A DNA stretch of 64,000 nt. Source: Thermoplasmata archaeon (GTDB lineage: Archaea; Thermoplasmatota; Thermoplasmata; Lutacidiplasmatales; UBA184). Both the position numbers and the translations under genes were made by a program. The stretch spans positions 1 through 64,000 of the forward strand of contig JAKASE010000003.1 in the NCBI GenBank assembly GCA_021819135.1. Reading direction: 5' to 3'. Shown piece by piece: positions 11,134-61,564 of this stretch (the stretch's first letter is position 1; every line of letters begins with the position of its first letter). Under the pieces are notes generated by a model that worked only from the letters and a program-made list of their open reading frames with translations, did not search any database and was not told the DNA's origin.

Positions 11134-12402
11134 GTGCCGTTCTCCGCCGTTTCCCGTCAGTTTCTCACCGCGGCGCTGGCCCATCTCGCGGCGGCGGGCG
11201 CCGTGCTGCTGCTGGGCTCGGGCGCGGGGGCGCTTACCGTACGCTGGGACTTTCTCGTCTGGCTTCTGCTCGTCGGCTTCGTCGGGTTCACAACCGCTGG
11301 GTTCGCCCTCCACCTCTTTCCGACAATCTCCCGGCGCCCTCAGCCACCCCGATGGGTTGGGCAGGCGGCGTTCCTCCTCGCTGAGGGAGGGCTTGTCATC
11401 GGCGCGGTCGGCCTTTCCGTAGCGACTTCGCCTCCTTTACCGGGATGGGTATTCTCCCTCGGGGCACTGCTCTTCTTGGGAGGCGAGGGGGCCGTTGTAG
11501 GTCTCTTCGCGCGCGATCTCATCGAACCCCGACTGTTGACCCAGGGCCCCGAGACTCGGTCGGGCGATGCCGTGACCGTTCCTCTCTTTCTTGTGTCATG
11601 GGCCTCGGCCGTGGGCTCAGGCGGTTTGTTCGTCCTTTCTGGATTCGCCGAGGGGCCCGGATTCGGCTGGTGGCTCGCGGCGGTGCACCTGTTCGTCCTT
11701 GGGCACGCCGTGCTCCTCATCACGGCGGTCAGCCTCCGTCTCGTGCCTCGCTCGCTTGACGCCGACGTTTCCCGCCCGACGGTCTACCTTCTCGCCAGCC
11801 TCGGTATCGTCGGTGCGATCCTCGTTCCCGTTGGGATGCTCGGGACGTCTCCATCTTCGGCCGCCGACCTCGCCGTCTGGGCCGTGCCCGAGGCGGCCTT
11901 CGCCATCCTGTTCGTTTCCGTACTGATCGTTCTCGTGATTCGGGCTCGGACTCCCCGTGCGGAGGTGGGCCTGCACCTGACGAGCCTCACGTTGTTCCTG
12001 ATCGGTGGCTCGATCGGCCTCTGGATGATCTCCGAGTCGAACTACACCCCAGTGGTGGCCCACGCGCTCGTCAGCGTCCTTGGGTTCGTGGGCATCACAA
12101 TCCTGTTCATGTGGTTCGGCATGATTGCCCCGTTCCAGCGGATTTCCCACGCCTGGACGCGACGCATGCTCTGGGCTCTCTCAGCAACTTGGATTGTGGG
12201 AGTGGTCGCCGTCGCGACGGAGGGCGCCGAGGGCTGGTCAGGCGCCGGATGGTTGTCCTCGCTCTCCGGCGCCCTCCTTCTCGGGGCGACCATCGTGTGG
12301 GGGGCCGGTACAACACCGGTCCTTTATCCGGCACTGAATCCCTTGCCGGGACTGACCAGCGAGGAGATCCGGGTCATCCGGGACCGGTGGAAAGACCGAT
12401 GA
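11134..12402 (+). CDS. Twelve-TM NnrS/heme-copper-oxidase-like membrane protein
   Basis: A 422-residue integral membrane protein with about twelve hydrophobic segments. Conserved-looking histidines occur in membrane context: ALHLFPTISRR after TM2, and VHLFVLGHAVLLITAVSLRL in TM6. This resembles NnrS, a heme protein linked to nitrosative stress, and related subunit-I-like proteins. The GTG at 11134 is chosen because AATATAGG at 11105-11112 is a box A 22-29 nt upstream. The stop overlaps the next start as ATGA, placing it in an operon with hemerythrin and DUF488. The family call is by resemblance only. Confidence 0.6.
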   Translation: MPFSAVSRQFLTAALAHLAAAGAVLLLGSGAGALTVRWDFLVWLLLVGFVGFTTAGFALHLFPTISRRPQPPRWVGQAAFLLAEGGLVIGAVGLSVATSPPLPGWVFSLGALLFLGGEGAVVGLFARDLIEPRLLTQGPETRSGDAVTVPLFLVSWASAVGSGGLFVLSGFAEGPGFGWWLAAVHLFVLGHAVLLITAVSLRLVPRSLDADVSRPTVYLLASLGIVGAILVPVGMLGTSPSSAADLAVWAVPEAAFAILFVSVLIVLVIRARTPRAEVGLHLTSLTLFLIGGSIGLWMISESNYTPVVAHALVSVLGFVGITILFMWFGMIAPFQRISHAWTRRMLWALSATWIVGVVAVATEGAEGWSGAGWLSSLSGALLLGATIVWGAGTTPVLYPALNPLPGLTSEEIRVIRDRWKDR

Positions 12403-18679: not shown

Positions 18680-18937
18680 CTAGCGTTGGTAGACCCTACG
18701 GCAATGGTCGACCCTTTCCACTGTGATCACTTGCTCCGAGGGCGAGAGCGCCGCGAGCAGGCGATAGTCCCCTACACGGAGTTTGCGTTCGTCGGAGTCC
18801 ACTAGCTTCTCGAAATAGTGATCCGGGTCGGTCGCAGCCCGCTCCACGCGGTCGGCGATCCGGCGCGCGACGGCTCGATCCAGCGACCTCAGGTCACGAA
18901 TTGCCGTGTCGGTCCACTGGATTCTCCAAGGCGTCAG
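18680..18937 (-). CDS. RelE/ParE-type toxin with apparent CTG start
   Basis: An 85-residue RelE-type mRNA interferase: PWRIQWTDTAIRDLRSLDRA forms the N-terminal strand and helix, followed by ARRIADRVERAATDP, ERKLRVGDYRLLAAL, and the catalytic C-terminal strand VERVDHCRRVYQR, the usual R-V-x-H-R-R-x-V-Y pattern. The frame has no ATG, GTG or TTG in the ~17 codons examined upstream. CTG 18937-18935 overlaps the antitoxin stop as CTGA, where an ATGA junction would be expected. Length from this codon is normal for the family. It acts on ribosome-bound mRNA, neutralised by the upstream RHH-like partner. Confidence 0.75.
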   Translation of the reverse strand: MTPWRIQWTDTAIRDLRSLDRAVARRIADRVERAATDPDHYFEKLVDSDERKLRVGDYRLLAALSPSEQVITVERVDHCRRVYQR

Positions 18938-19170
18938 AGACCCAACCGCTTCTTGACAAGATCGTGGTCCGTCACTCGGCTCGCACGAATGTCAAGTCGG
19001 GCACCGAGGAACCCGATTCGGAACGAGTCGGTATACACTCCCTCGTCATCCCCCTCCGGAACCAGAGCGATCAACCGGTTCAGCAACTCGTCGTAGGTCT
19101 CTCGAGGGGTTGTCTTGAGGGCCGCCAGCTTTTGCCGAGTAGAAGACGACAGCTGGATCGTCGTGATCAT
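18934..19170 (-). CDS. RHH-like antitoxin
   Basis: A 78-residue protein starting with a short beta strand and helices (MITTIQLSSSTRQKLAALKT, then TYDELLNRLIAL), the ribbon-helix-helix layout of RelB/VapB-like antitoxins. A charged C-terminal part (DIRASRVTDHDLVKKRLGL) would wrap the toxin. It overlaps the RelE-type toxin gene by 4 nt. Two 9-nt direct repeats 11 bp apart lie just upstream, matching how RHH repressors bind along one DNA face. Confidence 0.75.
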   Translation of the reverse strand: MITTIQLSSSTRQKLAALKTTPRETYDELLNRLIALVPEGDDEGVYTDSFRIGFLGARLDIRASRVTDHDLVKKRLGL

Positions 19171-22805: not shown

Positions 22806-24341
22806 GTGGCGGCGAAGGCGAGCGACATGGCCCGACCGGGGACGCGTGCGACCGCGGCCGATCTGCGTGCCTCGGGGGTGACGGTCCAGAGCCCGGGGGA
22901 CCGCTTCCGGGGCGAGATCCTCCGGACCCTGGAAGGCCTTCGGAAGAAGGGGCTCGACCGTGCCGAGGCGATCCGGGCGCTGTTCCCGCGGACCGTCCTT
23001 CCCGACCGGACCTACGAGGACGTCGTCGCGGGGATCGTCTCGGGCTCGCACCTGCTGTTCTTCGGCCCTTCCGGAGCCGGCAAGACGAGCCTTGCCAAGG
23101 ACCTCTGGGGTCTCTTCCCGAAGGGGGTCTGGGTCGTAGACGATTGCCCGGTGCTCGACCACCCGCTCTCCCTCGTCGACCGGGCGGCCGCGGAGCGGTT
23201 CCCGCCCTGCCCGATCTGCCAGCGGCGCTTCGCCCCCGACTCCGATCCGGCCCGCTTCGACCCGTCGTCGGTCGACCCGGCCCGGGTGCCGGCGGAGTTC
23301 CTCCTCCTGCGCGAGGGGTTCGGGTTCGCCCGGCTGCAGGGCAGCTCCGAGGTGTTTCCGGACCACCTCACGGGAAACATCAACCTCCGAAAGCTCGAGG
23401 AGATCGGCGACCCGATGAGCCCGCTCGTCCTCGAGCCGGGCAAGCTCCTCCAGGCGAACCGTGGGTTCCTGCTCGTTGACGAGATCGGCAAGCTCCCGCT
23501 CGGCACTCAGAACGTGCTGCTCCAGGCGCTCCAGGAGGGGACGGTCACGCCGTCGAAGTCCCGGGAGAGCTTCCCGGGCTCGTTCGTCGCGGTCTGCACG
23601 TCGAACCTCTCCGACCTCGACAACATCAATGACCCGCTCTCCGACCGCCTGACGAGCCTCCACGTGGGGTACAACGACCGCCATGCGGACAACCGCCAGA
23701 TCGTCGCGCTCGGCCGCCCTGCGGACCCCGAGACCTACGTGCCGGAGATCCTCGTCGACGCGGGGGTCCGGGTCGTCGAGTCCTGGCGCCTACGGATGAG
23801 CGACGAGAACCCCGACATCGGGGAGGTCGGGTCGAACCGGACCCTGCTCGACGTTGCGGCGCGCACCGCGGCGATCGCGGCGATGGACGGCCGGGCCATC
23901 GCGGCCAGCGCGGACCTAAAGAGCGGTCTGCTCCACGCGATGCGGGGCCGGATCCGGGCGCGGAGCGGCGACTCGTTCCGCCAGAACGAGCGGCGGATCT
24001 CGGAGTTCGTCGATCAGTATCTCACCCCGGCGCTCAAGCGGAGCGCGGGGGTCTACTGGTGCCGGTACTACCGCGGCCCCCTCCGCGAGAACTCGGGCGA
24101 GGCCGAGTCACTCGTCGGCGAAGGCCGGCGGCTGAAGGACGACGCCGAGCTGCGGGGGAAGGCCTCGGGGGATCCGACGCTCTTCCCGAAGTTCCGATCG
24201 TTCGCCGGCTACGTCGGGGAGCGCGAGCCCGCGGGGGCGGGCCCGAACCCCCTGGACGTCGCCGTCGGCGTCTTCCGGCTGCTCGAGGAGTTCTCCCTCT
24301 TCTCCTGCCGGGAGGAAGACGACGACAACGCCCCCCTCTAG
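22806..24341 (+). CDS. MoxR/ChlI-like AAA+ ATPase with an inserted zinc-knuckle
   Basis: A 511-residue AAA+ ATPase. Walker A is LLFFGPSGAGKTSLAKDLW (~residue 77); Walker B is GFLLVDEIGKLPLGTQN (~residue 220), followed by the Mg-chelatase-like helix-2 insert region (HLTGNINLRKLEEIGDP) and sensor/arginine-finger area (DPLSDRLTSL). A short insert has CPICQRRF, a possible zinc knuckle half. This family remodels protein complexes together with VWA-domain partners, and the next gene is such a partner, so they likely act as a chelatase-like pair. The target is unknown. Confidence 0.8.
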   Translation: MAAKASDMARPGTRATAADLRASGVTVQSPGDRFRGEILRTLEGLRKKGLDRAEAIRALFPRTVLPDRTYEDVVAGIVSGSHLLFFGPSGAGKTSLAKDLWGLFPKGVWVVDDCPVLDHPLSLVDRAAAERFPPCPICQRRFAPDSDPARFDPSSVDPARVPAEFLLLREGFGFARLQGSSEVFPDHLTGNINLRKLEEIGDPMSPLVLEPGKLLQANRGFLLVDEIGKLPLGTQNVLLQALQEGTVTPSKSRESFPGSFVAVCTSNLSDLDNINDPLSDRLTSLHVGYNDRHADNRQIVALGRPADPETYVPEILVDAGVRVVESWRLRMSDENPDIGEVGSNRTLLDVAARTAAIAAMDGRAIAASADLKSGLLHAMRGRIRARSGDSFRQNERRISEFVDQYLTPALKRSAGVYWCRYYRGPLRENSGEAESLVGEGRRLKDDAELRGKASGDPTLFPKFRSFAGYVGEREPAGAGPNPLDVAVGVFRLLEEFSLFSCREEDDDNAPL

Positions 24342-24429
24342 CGCCGAGTTCGCCCTTCCGGACTGCTCGGAGTACTCGGACGACGTCACCTCGGACGACC
24401 TCCTCGACACGGTCGACACCCAAGCCCTC

Positions 24430-51587: not shown

Positions 51588-52442
51588 ATGACGGAGGAGG
51601 CTCCGGCGGAGCTTGTCGCCACGCTCCGGGACGCCGCCGTCAAGATCCGCCGCGAGATCATCCGGATGACCTACGCCGCCGGCAGCGGCCACCCGGGCGG
51701 GAGCCTTTCCGTCACGGACCTCGTCACCGCGCTCCTGTTCCACGAGCTCCGCTACGATCCCCAGCGGCCCGACTGGCCGGATCGGGACCGGCTCGTGATG
51801 TCGAAGGGCCACGCCGCGCCGGCCTTCTATGCCGCCCTCGCGATCCGCGGGATCCTGCCCCCGGAGGAGCTCCTCACGCTCCGGAAGCTCGGGAGCCGCC
51901 TGCAGGGCCACGTGGACCGCAACAAGCTCCCGTGGGTCGAAGCATCGACCGGGTGCCTCGGCCAGGGGATCGGCATGGCGGTCGGCATGGCGCTCGATGC
52001 GCGCCTCGCGAAGCGCCCGAGCCGCGTCTACGCGGTGCTCGGCGACGGCGAGTGCCAGTCCGGCTGGACCTGGGAGGCGCTGATGGCCGGCGGACACTAC
52101 CGGCTCGGCAACCTCGTCGCGATCCTCGACCGCAACGGGATCGAGACCGACGGGCCCACGGAGTCGATCATGGGGATCGAGCCGATCGCCGACAAGTTCC
52201 GGGCGTTCCGCTACCACACGCTCGAGATCGACGGGCACGACTTCCCCGCGATCCTGCGCGCGCTCGCCGAGGCCCGGACCGTGACGGACAAACCGACGGC
52301 GATCGTCGCCCGCACGGTCAAGGGCAAGGGGGTCTCGTTCATGGAAGGCCAGCATTCCTGGCACGGGAAGGCCCCCTCCGCGGCGGAGGCCGAGAAGGCG
52401 CTCCGCGAGCTCGGGGACCCGCGGGGGGTGCCCTCCCGATGA
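51588..52442 (+). CDS. Transketolase, N-terminal subunit
   Basis: A 284-residue ThDP-binding half of a split archaeal transketolase: YAAGSGHPGGSLSVTDLVTA, LVMSKGHAAPAFYAALA, STGCLGQGIGMAVGMAL, and the ThDP/Mg site VLGDGECQSGWTWEALM with LVAILDRNGIETDG. It transfers two-carbon units between sugar phosphates together with the C-terminal subunit. Box A GTAAAATAG (about 51551-51559) lies 29-37 nt upstream. The stop overlaps the next start as ATGA. Confidence 0.95.
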   Translation: MTEEAPAELVATLRDAAVKIRREIIRMTYAAGSGHPGGSLSVTDLVTALLFHELRYDPQRPDWPDRDRLVMSKGHAAPAFYAALAIRGILPPEELLTLRKLGSRLQGHVDRNKLPWVEASTGCLGQGIGMAVGMALDARLAKRPSRVYAVLGDGECQSGWTWEALMAGGHYRLGNLVAILDRNGIETDGPTESIMGIEPIADKFRAFRYHTLEIDGHDFPAILRALAEARTVTDKPTAIVARTVKGKGVSFMEGQHSWHGKAPSAAEAEKALRELGDPRGVPSR

Positions 52443-54127: not shown

Positions 54128-54412
54128 GTGTCCGACCCTCCGCTCTACGACAAGTACCTCCGCCTCACGCGCGAGGCGCTCGACCGGGTCCGCCCGGCCA
54201 CTCCCGAGCGGTCGTTCCTCCGGGGGGCCTCCGACGATTTCCTCTCCATGGCCCGTGCGTACCTCGCGGACGCCGAGCATTTCGCCGGGGCGGGCGACCG
54301 GGACCGGGCGCTCGCCGCGGTCAGCTACGCGCACGGATGGATCGATGCCGGGGTCCGCCTCGGCCTCCTGGACGGTGGGAACGATGACCGGCGGTTCACC
54401 CTCTTCCAGTGA
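54128..54412 (+). CDS. DUF357 family archaeal protein
   Basis: A 94-residue helical protein: LYDKYLRLTREALDRVRPAT, FLSMARAYLADAEHFAGAGD and RALAAVSYAHGWIDAGVRLG. These three helices are the archaeal DUF357 signature, often found beside translin and archaeal tRNA or DNA-metabolism genes. The function is unknown. GTG start; its end overlaps the translin gene by 29 nt. Confidence 0.85.
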   Translation: MSDPPLYDKYLRLTREALDRVRPATPERSFLRGASDDFLSMARAYLADAEHFAGAGDRDRALAAVSYAHGWIDAGVRLGLLDGGNDDRRFTLFQ

Positions 54413-55046
54413 GGGCCGGCCCCGGGCCCCCGACGGGGTCCCGGAGGGGGTCCTCGCGACGATCGAGGCGCACCTGCGCCAGCGGGAGCTCCGACGGGAG
54501 GACCTCTACCAGCGGGCGCGGCGGCTCCGTCGGCTCGCCCAGGGGACGATGGCCCGCCTGCACAGCGAGGGGGCCGCCCCGGCCGACCTCGCCGAGATCC
54601 GCCGCGCGATGGCGGAGACCTCCGACTGGCTACGGCGGGAGGGCCGCGGGGATGAGCCGATCGCGCTCGATGCCTTCCAGGAGGCCGTCGAGGCGGTCCT
54701 CCTCGGCACGATCGTGGCCGGCACCCCGATGCCCGGGCCGGCGGAGCTCGGGGTCGACCCGGAGCCGTACCTCCTCGGTCTCGGGGACGTGGTCGGGGAG
54801 GTGCGCCGGCTCACGCTCGACCGCCTCTCTCACGACGATCTTCCCGGGGCCGAGGCGTCGCTCGCCCTGATGGAGCGCCTCACGCGCGCCCTGCTCCGGT
54901 TCGACACGACCCGGGCGATCGTCCAGCTGAAGCCGAAGCAGGACACGGCCCGGGCCCTCCTCGAGCGGACCCGGGGAGAGGTCGTCATGGCCCGATTCCT
55001 CACCCGGGCGCGGCCCGGCGGCCCCGGCGCCCCGGAGGATCCCTGA
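54384..55046 (+). CDS. Translin family protein
   Basis: A 220-residue all-helical protein of the translin/TRAX family, which forms octameric barrels binding or cutting RNA: LRREDLYQRARRLRRLAQGT, ARLHSEGAAPADLAEIRRAM, DAFQEAVEAVLLGTIVAGTP, YLLGLGDVVGEVRRLTLDRL, and DTTRAIVQLKPKQDTARALL near the end. It overlaps DUF357 by 29 nt and meets the next gene in a CTGA overlap, so three genes are coupled. Confidence 0.85.
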   Translation: MTGGSPSSSEGRPRAPDGVPEGVLATIEAHLRQRELRREDLYQRARRLRRLAQGTMARLHSEGAAPADLAEIRRAMAETSDWLRREGRGDEPIALDAFQEAVEAVLLGTIVAGTPMPGPAELGVDPEPYLLGLGDVVGEVRRLTLDRLSHDDLPGAEASLALMERLTRALLRFDTTRAIVQLKPKQDTARALLERTRGEVVMARFLTRARPGGPGAPEDP

Positions 55047-55840
55047 GCGACCTCCCGGCCCGTCGGACGATCGCCGTCATCGGAGGGTCCGGGGTGACCG
55101 GGATCTTCGAGGGCGGGCCGAAGCGGACCCACCGCGTGGCGACCCCGTGGGGGGCCCCGTCGGGGCCGATCGAGGAGGGGGAGGTCGGCGGGGTCCGGGT
55201 GTTGTTCCTGCCCCGCCACGGTCCCGGCCACACCATCCCGCCGCACCGGGTGAACTACCGGGCGAACATCGACGCCCTCCGCTCCCTCGGTGCGGAGGCG
55301 ATCGTCACGGTGAGCTCCGTCGGTTCGCTGAAGGAGTCGCTCCCGCCCGGCACGTTCGTCCTGCCGGACCAGTTCGTCGACCTCACGAAGCAGCGGCCGA
55401 CCACGTTCTACGACGGGGGGCGGGTCTACCACGTGTCGCTCGCCGATCCGTTCTGCCCCGACCTCACCGAGGGGGCGGCCTCCGTCGGGCGGGAGATCGG
55501 CATCCCGTTCGTCGAGAAGGCGACGTACGTCTGCGTCGAGGGACCGCGGTTCTCCACCCGGGCGGAGTCGGCCTACTTCCGCACGTTCGCCGACGTGATC
55601 GGCATGACGCTCGTGCCCGAGGTCACGCTCGCCCGGGAGCGCGCGCTTTGCTACCTCTCCCTCGCGATGGTCACCGACTTCGATGTCTGGGCGGACCGTC
55701 CGGTCGAGGCGAAGGAGATCGTCGAGACGATGCACCGGAACGTCGACCGGATGGCCCGGGTCCTCTCCCGGCTCCTTCCGCGCGTCGCCCGCCCTCCGAG
55801 CTGCGCCTGCGCCCGCGCGCTCGATGACGCGGGGGTATAG
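55043..55840 (+). CDS. S-methyl-5'-thioadenosine (or thioinosine) phosphorylase, apparent CTG start
   Basis: A 265-residue nucleoside phosphorylase cleaving MTA or MTI with phosphate: LPARRTIAVIGGSGVTGIFE (phosphate loop), RHGPGHTIPPHRVNYRANID, VTVSSVGSLKESLPPGTFVL, YVCVEGPRFSTRAESAYFRT, and VTDFDVW. The conserved N-terminal strand lies before the first GTG (55094), so the true start must be upstream. The frame holds no ATG, GTG or TTG in the 28 codons checked, while CTG 55043 overlaps the translin stop as CTGA and gives the expected length. Confidence 0.88.
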   Translation: MSDLPARRTIAVIGGSGVTGIFEGGPKRTHRVATPWGAPSGPIEEGEVGGVRVLFLPRHGPGHTIPPHRVNYRANIDALRSLGAEAIVTVSSVGSLKESLPPGTFVLPDQFVDLTKQRPTTFYDGGRVYHVSLADPFCPDLTEGAASVGREIGIPFVEKATYVCVEGPRFSTRAESAYFRTFADVIGMTLVPEVTLARERALCYLSLAMVTDFDVWADRPVEAKEIVETMHRNVDRMARVLSRLLPRVARPPSCACARALDDAGV

Positions 55841-58677: not shown

Positions 58678-58821
58678 GTGACCGAAGAGCTCTGCCCGAA
58701 GTGCGGTCGGCCGGTCGCCCACTACGAGGACCGGGAGATCCGGGTCCGCTGGTGCGGCTTTCCCGACGCGCACTACTGGGTCTGGACCCTCAAGGTCCCG
58801 AAGCTCACGATGCGTCCCTAG
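58678..58821 (+). CDS. 47-residue zinc-ribbon protein
   Basis: A short frame from GTG 58678: VTEELCPKCGRPVAHYEDRE, IRVRWCGFPDAHYWVWTLKV, PKLTMRP. One CxxC pair plus a single later Cys and a His give a half zinc ribbon. GC-rich third positions and a clean family-like layout support a real gene. Its stop overlaps that of a convergent small gene. The function is unknown. Confidence 0.6.
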   Translation: MTEELCPKCGRPVAHYEDREIRVRWCGFPDAHYWVWTLKVPKLTMRP

Positions 58822-59056
58822 CGGGACGGTAGGGGGCGGCGGGCCCGCACGTCGATCACGAACCGGAGTACCTCGCGGGCGCCCGCCGCGTCGATGTCGG
58901 GACGGTCGGGGAACGCCCCGGAGAGGACCGCGGTGACGAACGCCCGGGCGGCGCGCCGCGTCTCCCGCAGGGTCCGGCCCTCGACGGTGCCGAGGCCGTC
59001 GATCCAGGCGAGGTAGCCGGACGGAGTGCGGAAGACCCGGACCTGGAAGGCGGACG
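58818..59056 (-). CDS. Small HicB-like protein, start unresolved
   Basis: The frame encodes FQVRVFRTPSGYLAWIDGLG, TVEGRTLRETRRAARAFVTA, VLSGAFPDRPDID, and AAGAREVLRFVIDVRARRPL. The first half (strand, G-Y-x-A, G-L-G-T, helix) resembles HicB antitoxin cores. Strong third-position GC bias supports coding. No ATG, GTG, TTG or CTG precedes the domain; ACG 59056 is the nearest plausible codon, and a TCTTTACC box A lies at about 59085-59092. A lost start or sequencing error is possible. Confidence 0.5.
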
Positions 59057-60691: not shown

Positions 60692-61564
60692 TCAGCCGCC
60701 GGTCACGTCCTGCAGGAACTCCCGGAGGGTGCCGAGGAACTCCCGGGGCTGCTCGAGGACCTCCATGTGGCTCGAGTGCGGCAGGACACGCAGGTGGGCC
60801 GGCTCGATCCGCTGGGCCATGTCGAGCGAGGGCTCGAGGAAGAAGTCGTACTTCCCGACGACCACGACGCTCGGCGTCTCGATCTTCGAATAGTACGGCC
60901 GCCCGTCCCAGGACGCCATCGTCCCGTCGACCACGAACTCGTCGCCCGTCCGCGCCATCATGGCTCGGTAGACCGTGGGACTGGAGCGGGTCGCCTTCCA
61001 GTCGAGGGGATCGGTCGCGAGGAAGCGGGTCGAGAACGGTCGCGTGATCTCCGCGGCGAGCTTCGTGTACTCGGGGGACTCGAACGCCCGGGCCCGCGTG
61101 AGCTCCCGCAGGCGGGTGCGCTGGCGTGGCGAGGCGGCGGAGATCATCATCCGGTTCGAGGCGCGGACCTCCTCGGCGCTGCCGGCGGTCGCGCAGAGCA
61201 AGAGCGAGGTCAGCCGCCGTTCGTACCGGCGGGCGTACTCGAGGGCGACGAACCCGCCCGCGGAGTACCCGAGGAGATGGAGCTCCCGGATCTTCAGGGC
61301 CCGCCGGATCGCCTCGACGTCCTCGGCGAGGTTCGGGATCGTGTACTCGCTCCGGTTCTTCGGGGCCCAGCTATGGCCGACGCCGCGGGGATTGAACAGG
61401 ACCACGCGGAGGTTCGCGTTGGCGAGCTTGAGGAGACCCCGCAGGTAGTGGTAGGTCAGTCCGGGGCCGCCCGGATGGACGAGAAGGGTCGCCGGCCCCC
61501 TTCCCTGGGCCACGTACTCGAACGCCCGGCCTCCCGGGACGGTCACCGTGCGCACACGCGCCAT
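60692..61564 (-). CDS. Alpha/beta hydrolase (proline iminopeptidase-like)
   Basis: A 290-residue alpha/beta hydrolase: LLVHPGGPGLTYHYLRGLLK (oxyanion HGGPG variant), VVLFNPRGVGHSWAP (D-Q/R-x-G-x-G-x-S), nucleophile elbow HLLGYSAGGFVALEYARRYE, late Asp (VVVGKYDFFLEPS) and His (LPHSSHMEVLEQP). It resembles proline iminopeptidases and related esterases; the substrate is not readable. ATG 61564 is chosen because homology starts at MARVRTVTVPGG. Confidence 0.88.
   Translation of the reverse strand: MARVRTVTVPGGRAFEYVAQGRGPATLLVHPGGPGLTYHYLRGLLKLANANLRVVLFNPRGVGHSWAPKNRSEYTIPNLAEDVEAIRRALKIRELHLLGYSAGGFVALEYARRYERRLTSLLLCATAGSAEEVRASNRMMISAASPRQRTRLRELTRARAFESPEYTKLAAEITRPFSTRFLATDPLDWKATRSSPTVYRAMMARTGDEFVVDGTMASWDGRPYYSKIETPSVVVVGKYDFFLEPSLDMAQRIEPAHLRVLPHSSHMEVLEQPREFLGTLREFLQDVTGG

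Follow-up and report, generated by a model that had tools for sequence, protein, structure and literature searches.

The window analysed here, a stretch of 64,000 nucleotides, belongs to a 2.2-Mb archaeal draft genome in 47 contigs. The relatives of this genome are Thermoplasmata MAGs, and one of these carries the name Candidatus Lutacidiplasma. On the plus strand, a gene for the methionine-salvage enzyme S-methyl-5'-thioadenosine phosphorylase (MTAP) follows a translin-like gene, and the two are joined at the sequence GGAGGA TCC CTGA GCG (55034-55049). The features of this locus are as follows.

54384..55046, plus strand: translin-like upstream gene of 220 amino acids, an open frame from ATG with its TGA at 55044-55046
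55034..55039, plus strand: GGAGGA, a Shine-Dalgarno-like motif lying 3 nt 5' of the CTG
55043..55046, plus strand: CTGA overlap, a proposed CTG start fused with the upstream TGA stop
55043..55840 including the stop, plus strand: MTAP, 265 codons and TAG (PDB 1wta, E value 2e-87)
55079..55093, plus strand: codons of the IGGSG phosphate loop, which are lost if the gene starts at GTG 55094

The translin-like gene matched Translin weakly, with an E value of 3.8e-4 that fell short of the Pfam cut-off. MTAP exceeded the cut-off of its family model TIGR01694 (293.7 bits versus 274.85) and scored 343.4 against the narrower model NF006334, under the 382 set for that model. IGGSG, the phosphate loop of the MTAP family, occupies codons 13-17 near the N terminus when CTG is counted as codon 1.

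The original prediction that MTAP starts at this CTG had pointed to 28 upstream codons free of ATG, GTG and TTG. The 130 codons between the in-frame stop at 54653 and 55043 proved to include no ATG, GTG, TTG or other CTG; a single ATT at 54995 was the only alternative among them. The first canonical codon 3' of the CTG is GTG 55094 (codon 18), directly after IGGSG, so the phosphate-loop strand does lie upstream of the first usable GTG, as had been argued. When codon usage was scored without any start-codon constraint, the onset of coding fell exactly at 55043. Comparison of 65 distinct orthologues from the lineage, counting this genome, placed GTG (33) or ATG (30) at the start aligned with the CTG, and nearly all of these 63 starts sit in a GTGA or ATGA overlap at the junction orthologous to CTGA 55043-55046; the start position is thus conserved. 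In the NCBIfam model NF006334, MTAP residue 8 aligns with position 8, again counting from CTG as codon 1. The aligned orthologue starts and the model numbering together identify the CTG position as the start codon, with only its first base differing here. MTAP therefore combines the lack of a usable canonical start with a non-AUG codon aligned to the starts of its orthologues. Plain CTG at this junction was confined to this genome among the 65; the other CTGA, in L030, reads CTGATG, in which ATG is the likely start.

Initiation elsewhere, at GTG 55094 to give a shorter protein, at ATT 54995 or at ATC 55070 or 55079, is very improbable. Standard gene finders would accept GTG 55094 first, but its use removes the IGGSG that is conserved throughout the orthologues, and the relatives' start position aligns with the CTG, whereas the ATT and ATC codons align with no relative's start. 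It is scarcely credible that the start codon was lost and that the gene is a fresh pseudogene or untranslated. Such a loss would fit the presence of nothing but CTG where relatives carry ATG or GTG; against it, the 265-codon frame is intact and shares up to 86% identity with the relatives, the MTAP cut-off is passed, and the gene is the sole copy in this genome. The earlier judgement that MTAP is unlikely to be dead was thereby borne out. The conservation of a CTG start in a toxin gene of 12 genomes, described below, also speaks against the pseudogene.

The MTAP junction had been likened to a 'RelE case', and a CTGA was indeed located at 18937 on the minus strand, with the following features.

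18934..19170, minus strand: small DUF7557 gene (MITTIQ...KKRLGL), presumed antitoxin, upstream of the toxin
18934..18937, minus strand: second CTGA junction in the window, toxin start
18680..18937, minus strand: ParE/RelE-type toxin, 85 codons and stop (PF05016, E value 4.3e-11)

The gene, classed as a toxin by its sequence, matched PF05016 over the full length of the profile (positions 1-89 of 89) and has the small gene directly upstream. CTG was present in 12 of 12 homologues with at least 56% identity, and in all 12 genomes (this one included; toxins 56-100% identical) the gene ahead of the toxin ended in CTGA. No canonical start was found near the CTG in these 12 genomes: on the downstream side the closest is at codon +18 or beyond, and in two genomes one lies over 80 codons upstream. 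Whereas the CTG is invariant, the codon after it can be ACG, AGG or AAG. In a thirteenth homologue (52% identity) CTA takes the place of the CTG and a GTG follows two codons later; two distant homologues read TGATG, with ATG. Judged from these alignments, the toxin is the strongest candidate for a CTG start.

To survey other junctions, about 1.07 Mb of this genome (G000), 0.8 Mb of G018 and 0.4 Mb of G022 were sampled. Genes were called by a simple codon model, and those ending in TGA were examined if this stop overlapped the start of the following gene; as the calls were automatic, the counts are approximate. The called junction starts in the ~1.07 Mb of G000 comprised 76 ATGA, 50 GTGA and no TTGA. 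CTGA junctions without a usable canonical start numbered four in the same ~1.07 Mb, namely those of MTAP, the ParE/RelE-type toxin, a GH57 hydrolase and a thiolase. A full listing of genes without a nearby canonical start was too noisy to serve as sole evidence, and the pattern GGAGGNNNCTGAGCGA, whose spacer is one base short, cannot match the MTAP site, which makes its zero matches uninformative. The candidates beyond the window are listed below.

C12:65103, minus strand: CTGA junction of the GH57 hydrolase, no usable canonical start
C7:75550, plus strand: CTGA junction of the thiolase, no usable canonical start
C13:25190, plus strand: probable CTG start of aspartyl-tRNA ligase (aspS), AAGGAGGT preceding the CTG by 8 nt both here and in G018

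In 29 other genomes, the GH57 gene starts with GTG or ATG, mostly as GTGA or ATGA; the exceptions are CTGA in G032, TTGA in G018 and two further genomes in which the aligned codon is shifted beside GTG. Of 29 relatives, nearly all have ATGA or GTGA at the thiolase junction, and G022 shares the CTGA. The recurrence of CTGA in separate assemblies for both genes argues against sequencing error. A single-base assembly or sequencing error at 55043, which would have turned GTG or ATG into CTG and left the position right and the codon ordinary, is accordingly improbable. Such an error would suit a draft in 47 contigs and a CTG that is unique to this assembly among the 65 MTAP orthologues, but it would have to hit the very codon class found elsewhere, and CTG at conserved junctions of other genes, here and in separate assemblies, makes an error unnecessary.

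In aspS, the upstream gene ends further inside and there is no 4-nt overlap. Canonical codons lie upstream at 35 codons (TTG, this genome) and 50 codons (ATG, G018), and downstream at +33 and +13, respectively; on neither side do the positions in the two genomes coincide. Residue 5 aligns with position 5 of NF003483. CTG is thus probably also used as a start outside 4-nt overlaps, as the aligned sequences of the two genomes suggest.

Several other sites were noted. An XPD-like helicase at G000:C9:22805 (minus strand) has no ATG, GTG or TTG from the upstream stop to ~113 codons in and carries a CTG directly before a conserved FPYRVRPGQ; it is a candidate CTG start that is not a stop-start overlap. 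A HAD-like gene at C13:93481 is a further candidate, neither accepted nor rejected. CTGA junctions were set aside at window position 60695 (minus strand), with an ATG 22 codons on, and at C9:18307, C7:11456, C7:41118 and C4:94717, each with a canonical start close by. TTGA junction starts numbered five in the 0.8 Mb of G018 and none in the 1.07 Mb of G000.

Base usage indicates how such starts are treated by selection. Third codon positions in this genome are C in 49% of cases, and C precedes 228 of 438 non-junction TGA stops, a figure that includes the four CTG starts, as the gene caller was unable to accept them. Of ~130 junction starts, only four open with C. With C so common before other TGA stops and so rare at junction starts, CTG appears strongly selected against, yet tolerated. 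The ATGA overlaps cited for comparison at 12399, 12881 and 52439 are real; the last (52439..52442, plus strand), before a transketolase C-terminal subunit, is mainly ATGA or GTGA across 30 loci of the genus, one of which reads CTGACGATG with ATG two codons on. The original prediction had also proposed that CTG initiation be judged by an excess of CTGA junctions. CTGA starts do recur, but there is no excess: four against 126 ATGA and GTGA junctions amount to a strong depletion. The missing excess is the wrong yardstick for refutation, since depletion is what a weak but tolerated start is expected to show. CTG initiation in stop-start overlaps is supported for the organism and its genus by the comparative evidence from MTAP, the toxin and the two further genes.

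GGAGG was found at most 20 nt from 44 of the 126 ATGA/GTGA junction starts, compared with 4.6% of random coding 20-mers, and at four of five CTG starts (Fisher P 0.06 against the 44/126). The archaeal 16S model gave no match in this assembly, and the 16S 3' end with the anti-Shine-Dalgarno was not found. GGAGG before junction starts was commoner in G000 than in G018 (11/95).

The start position, the absence of alternatives and the recurrence of CTG across other genes and genomes are established. We consider it probable (roughly 0.86) that CTG 55043 is the real MTAP start, reached by termination-reinitiation, and that CTG is a rare, weak and tolerated start of this archaeal lineage; the observation of MTAP's own CTG in a single assembly, the absence of a 16S match and the P of 0.06 for the GGAGG enrichment at CTG starts count against this. 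Ribosomes would terminate the translin-like gene at the overlapping TGA, aided by the adjacent upstream GGAGGA, and the initiator tRNA would be placed on CTG at reinitiation, so that MTAP presumably begins with Met; the output of the CTG start is likely to be weak. At an NTGA junction, the base that opens the start codon doubles as the wobble base of the codon that ends the upstream gene, and because this base is shared and the GC-rich genome favours C and G there, CTG arises easily. Selection may mostly hold A or G at this base, with C surviving where low output or strong coupling suffices. A broader reading, to which we give even odds, holds both that the lineage has in CTG a genuine fourth start codon, used on several long conserved genes, including aspartyl-tRNA ligase, and that across at least 12 genomes the toxin gene has retained its CTG as an inherent brake on output, keeping the toxin scarcer than the antitoxin. 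A weak start would benefit the toxin pair in this way.

Such genes would be cut short, extended or overlooked by gene finders limited to ATG, GTG and TTG: the MTAP call would lack the phosphate loop, the toxin would go unannotated or be ~30 codons too short, and the GH57 and thiolase genes would be over-extended. Where orthologues fix the start, CTG cases allow non-AUG initiation to be tested cleanly by comparison in archaea that have not been cultured. The toxin gene suggests that selection can act on a weak start codon as a means of regulation. Two other places in the window were noted. At 24325-24345 (plus strand), coding in a 568-codon VWA-domain-like frame sets in at ~24337 without an NTG start there. 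The preceding AAA-type gene ends in ...GCCCCCCTCTAG, and G018 retains the C6-TCTAG stretch; the two frames may be joined by a +1 frameshift, or the start may be unusual in another way. At 58820-59051 (minus strand), a short frame resembling HicB (IDGLGTVEG...) was scored as coding, but no canonical start was called for it.

CTG initiation and NTGA coupling are each already known. A set of CTG starts such as this one was not found described in the open-licence papers searched. CTG was a poor initiator in M. smegmatis reporters (PMC4633059), which counts against the preferred reading of MTAP, although the reporters represent a bacterium and an uncoupled context. Haloferax and E. coli have been shown to use termination-reinitiation at ATGA and TGATG overlaps (Huber et al. 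2019, PMC6728339; PMC10666635), and the junctions described here share the 4-nt stop-start overlap and, often, a Shine-Dalgarno motif within the upstream gene; those works cover ATG and other annotated starts, the term CTG being absent from PMC6728339, whereas here the start is CTG and coupling is proposed from the arrangement. Ribo-seq in Methanosarcina mazei assigned a CTG start to 5% of unannotated small ORFs (PMC11456600). That is likewise CTG initiation in an archaeon, but it concerns profiled small ORFs, while the present cases are long conserved enzymes and a toxin recognised by orthologue alignment across species. In Salmonella, Rhs toxin ORFs are read from an internal CTG (PMC7043789), which resembles the toxin reported here in yielding a low-level toxin product from CTG beside an immunity gene; the toxin and the arrangement are unrelated, and translation of the ParE/RelE-type toxin here would begin at the stop codon of its upstream neighbour. 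What is new is a group of long conserved archaeal genes whose putative CTG starts are fixed by comparison with orthologues; in one of these genes the CTG is unchanged in twelve genomes.
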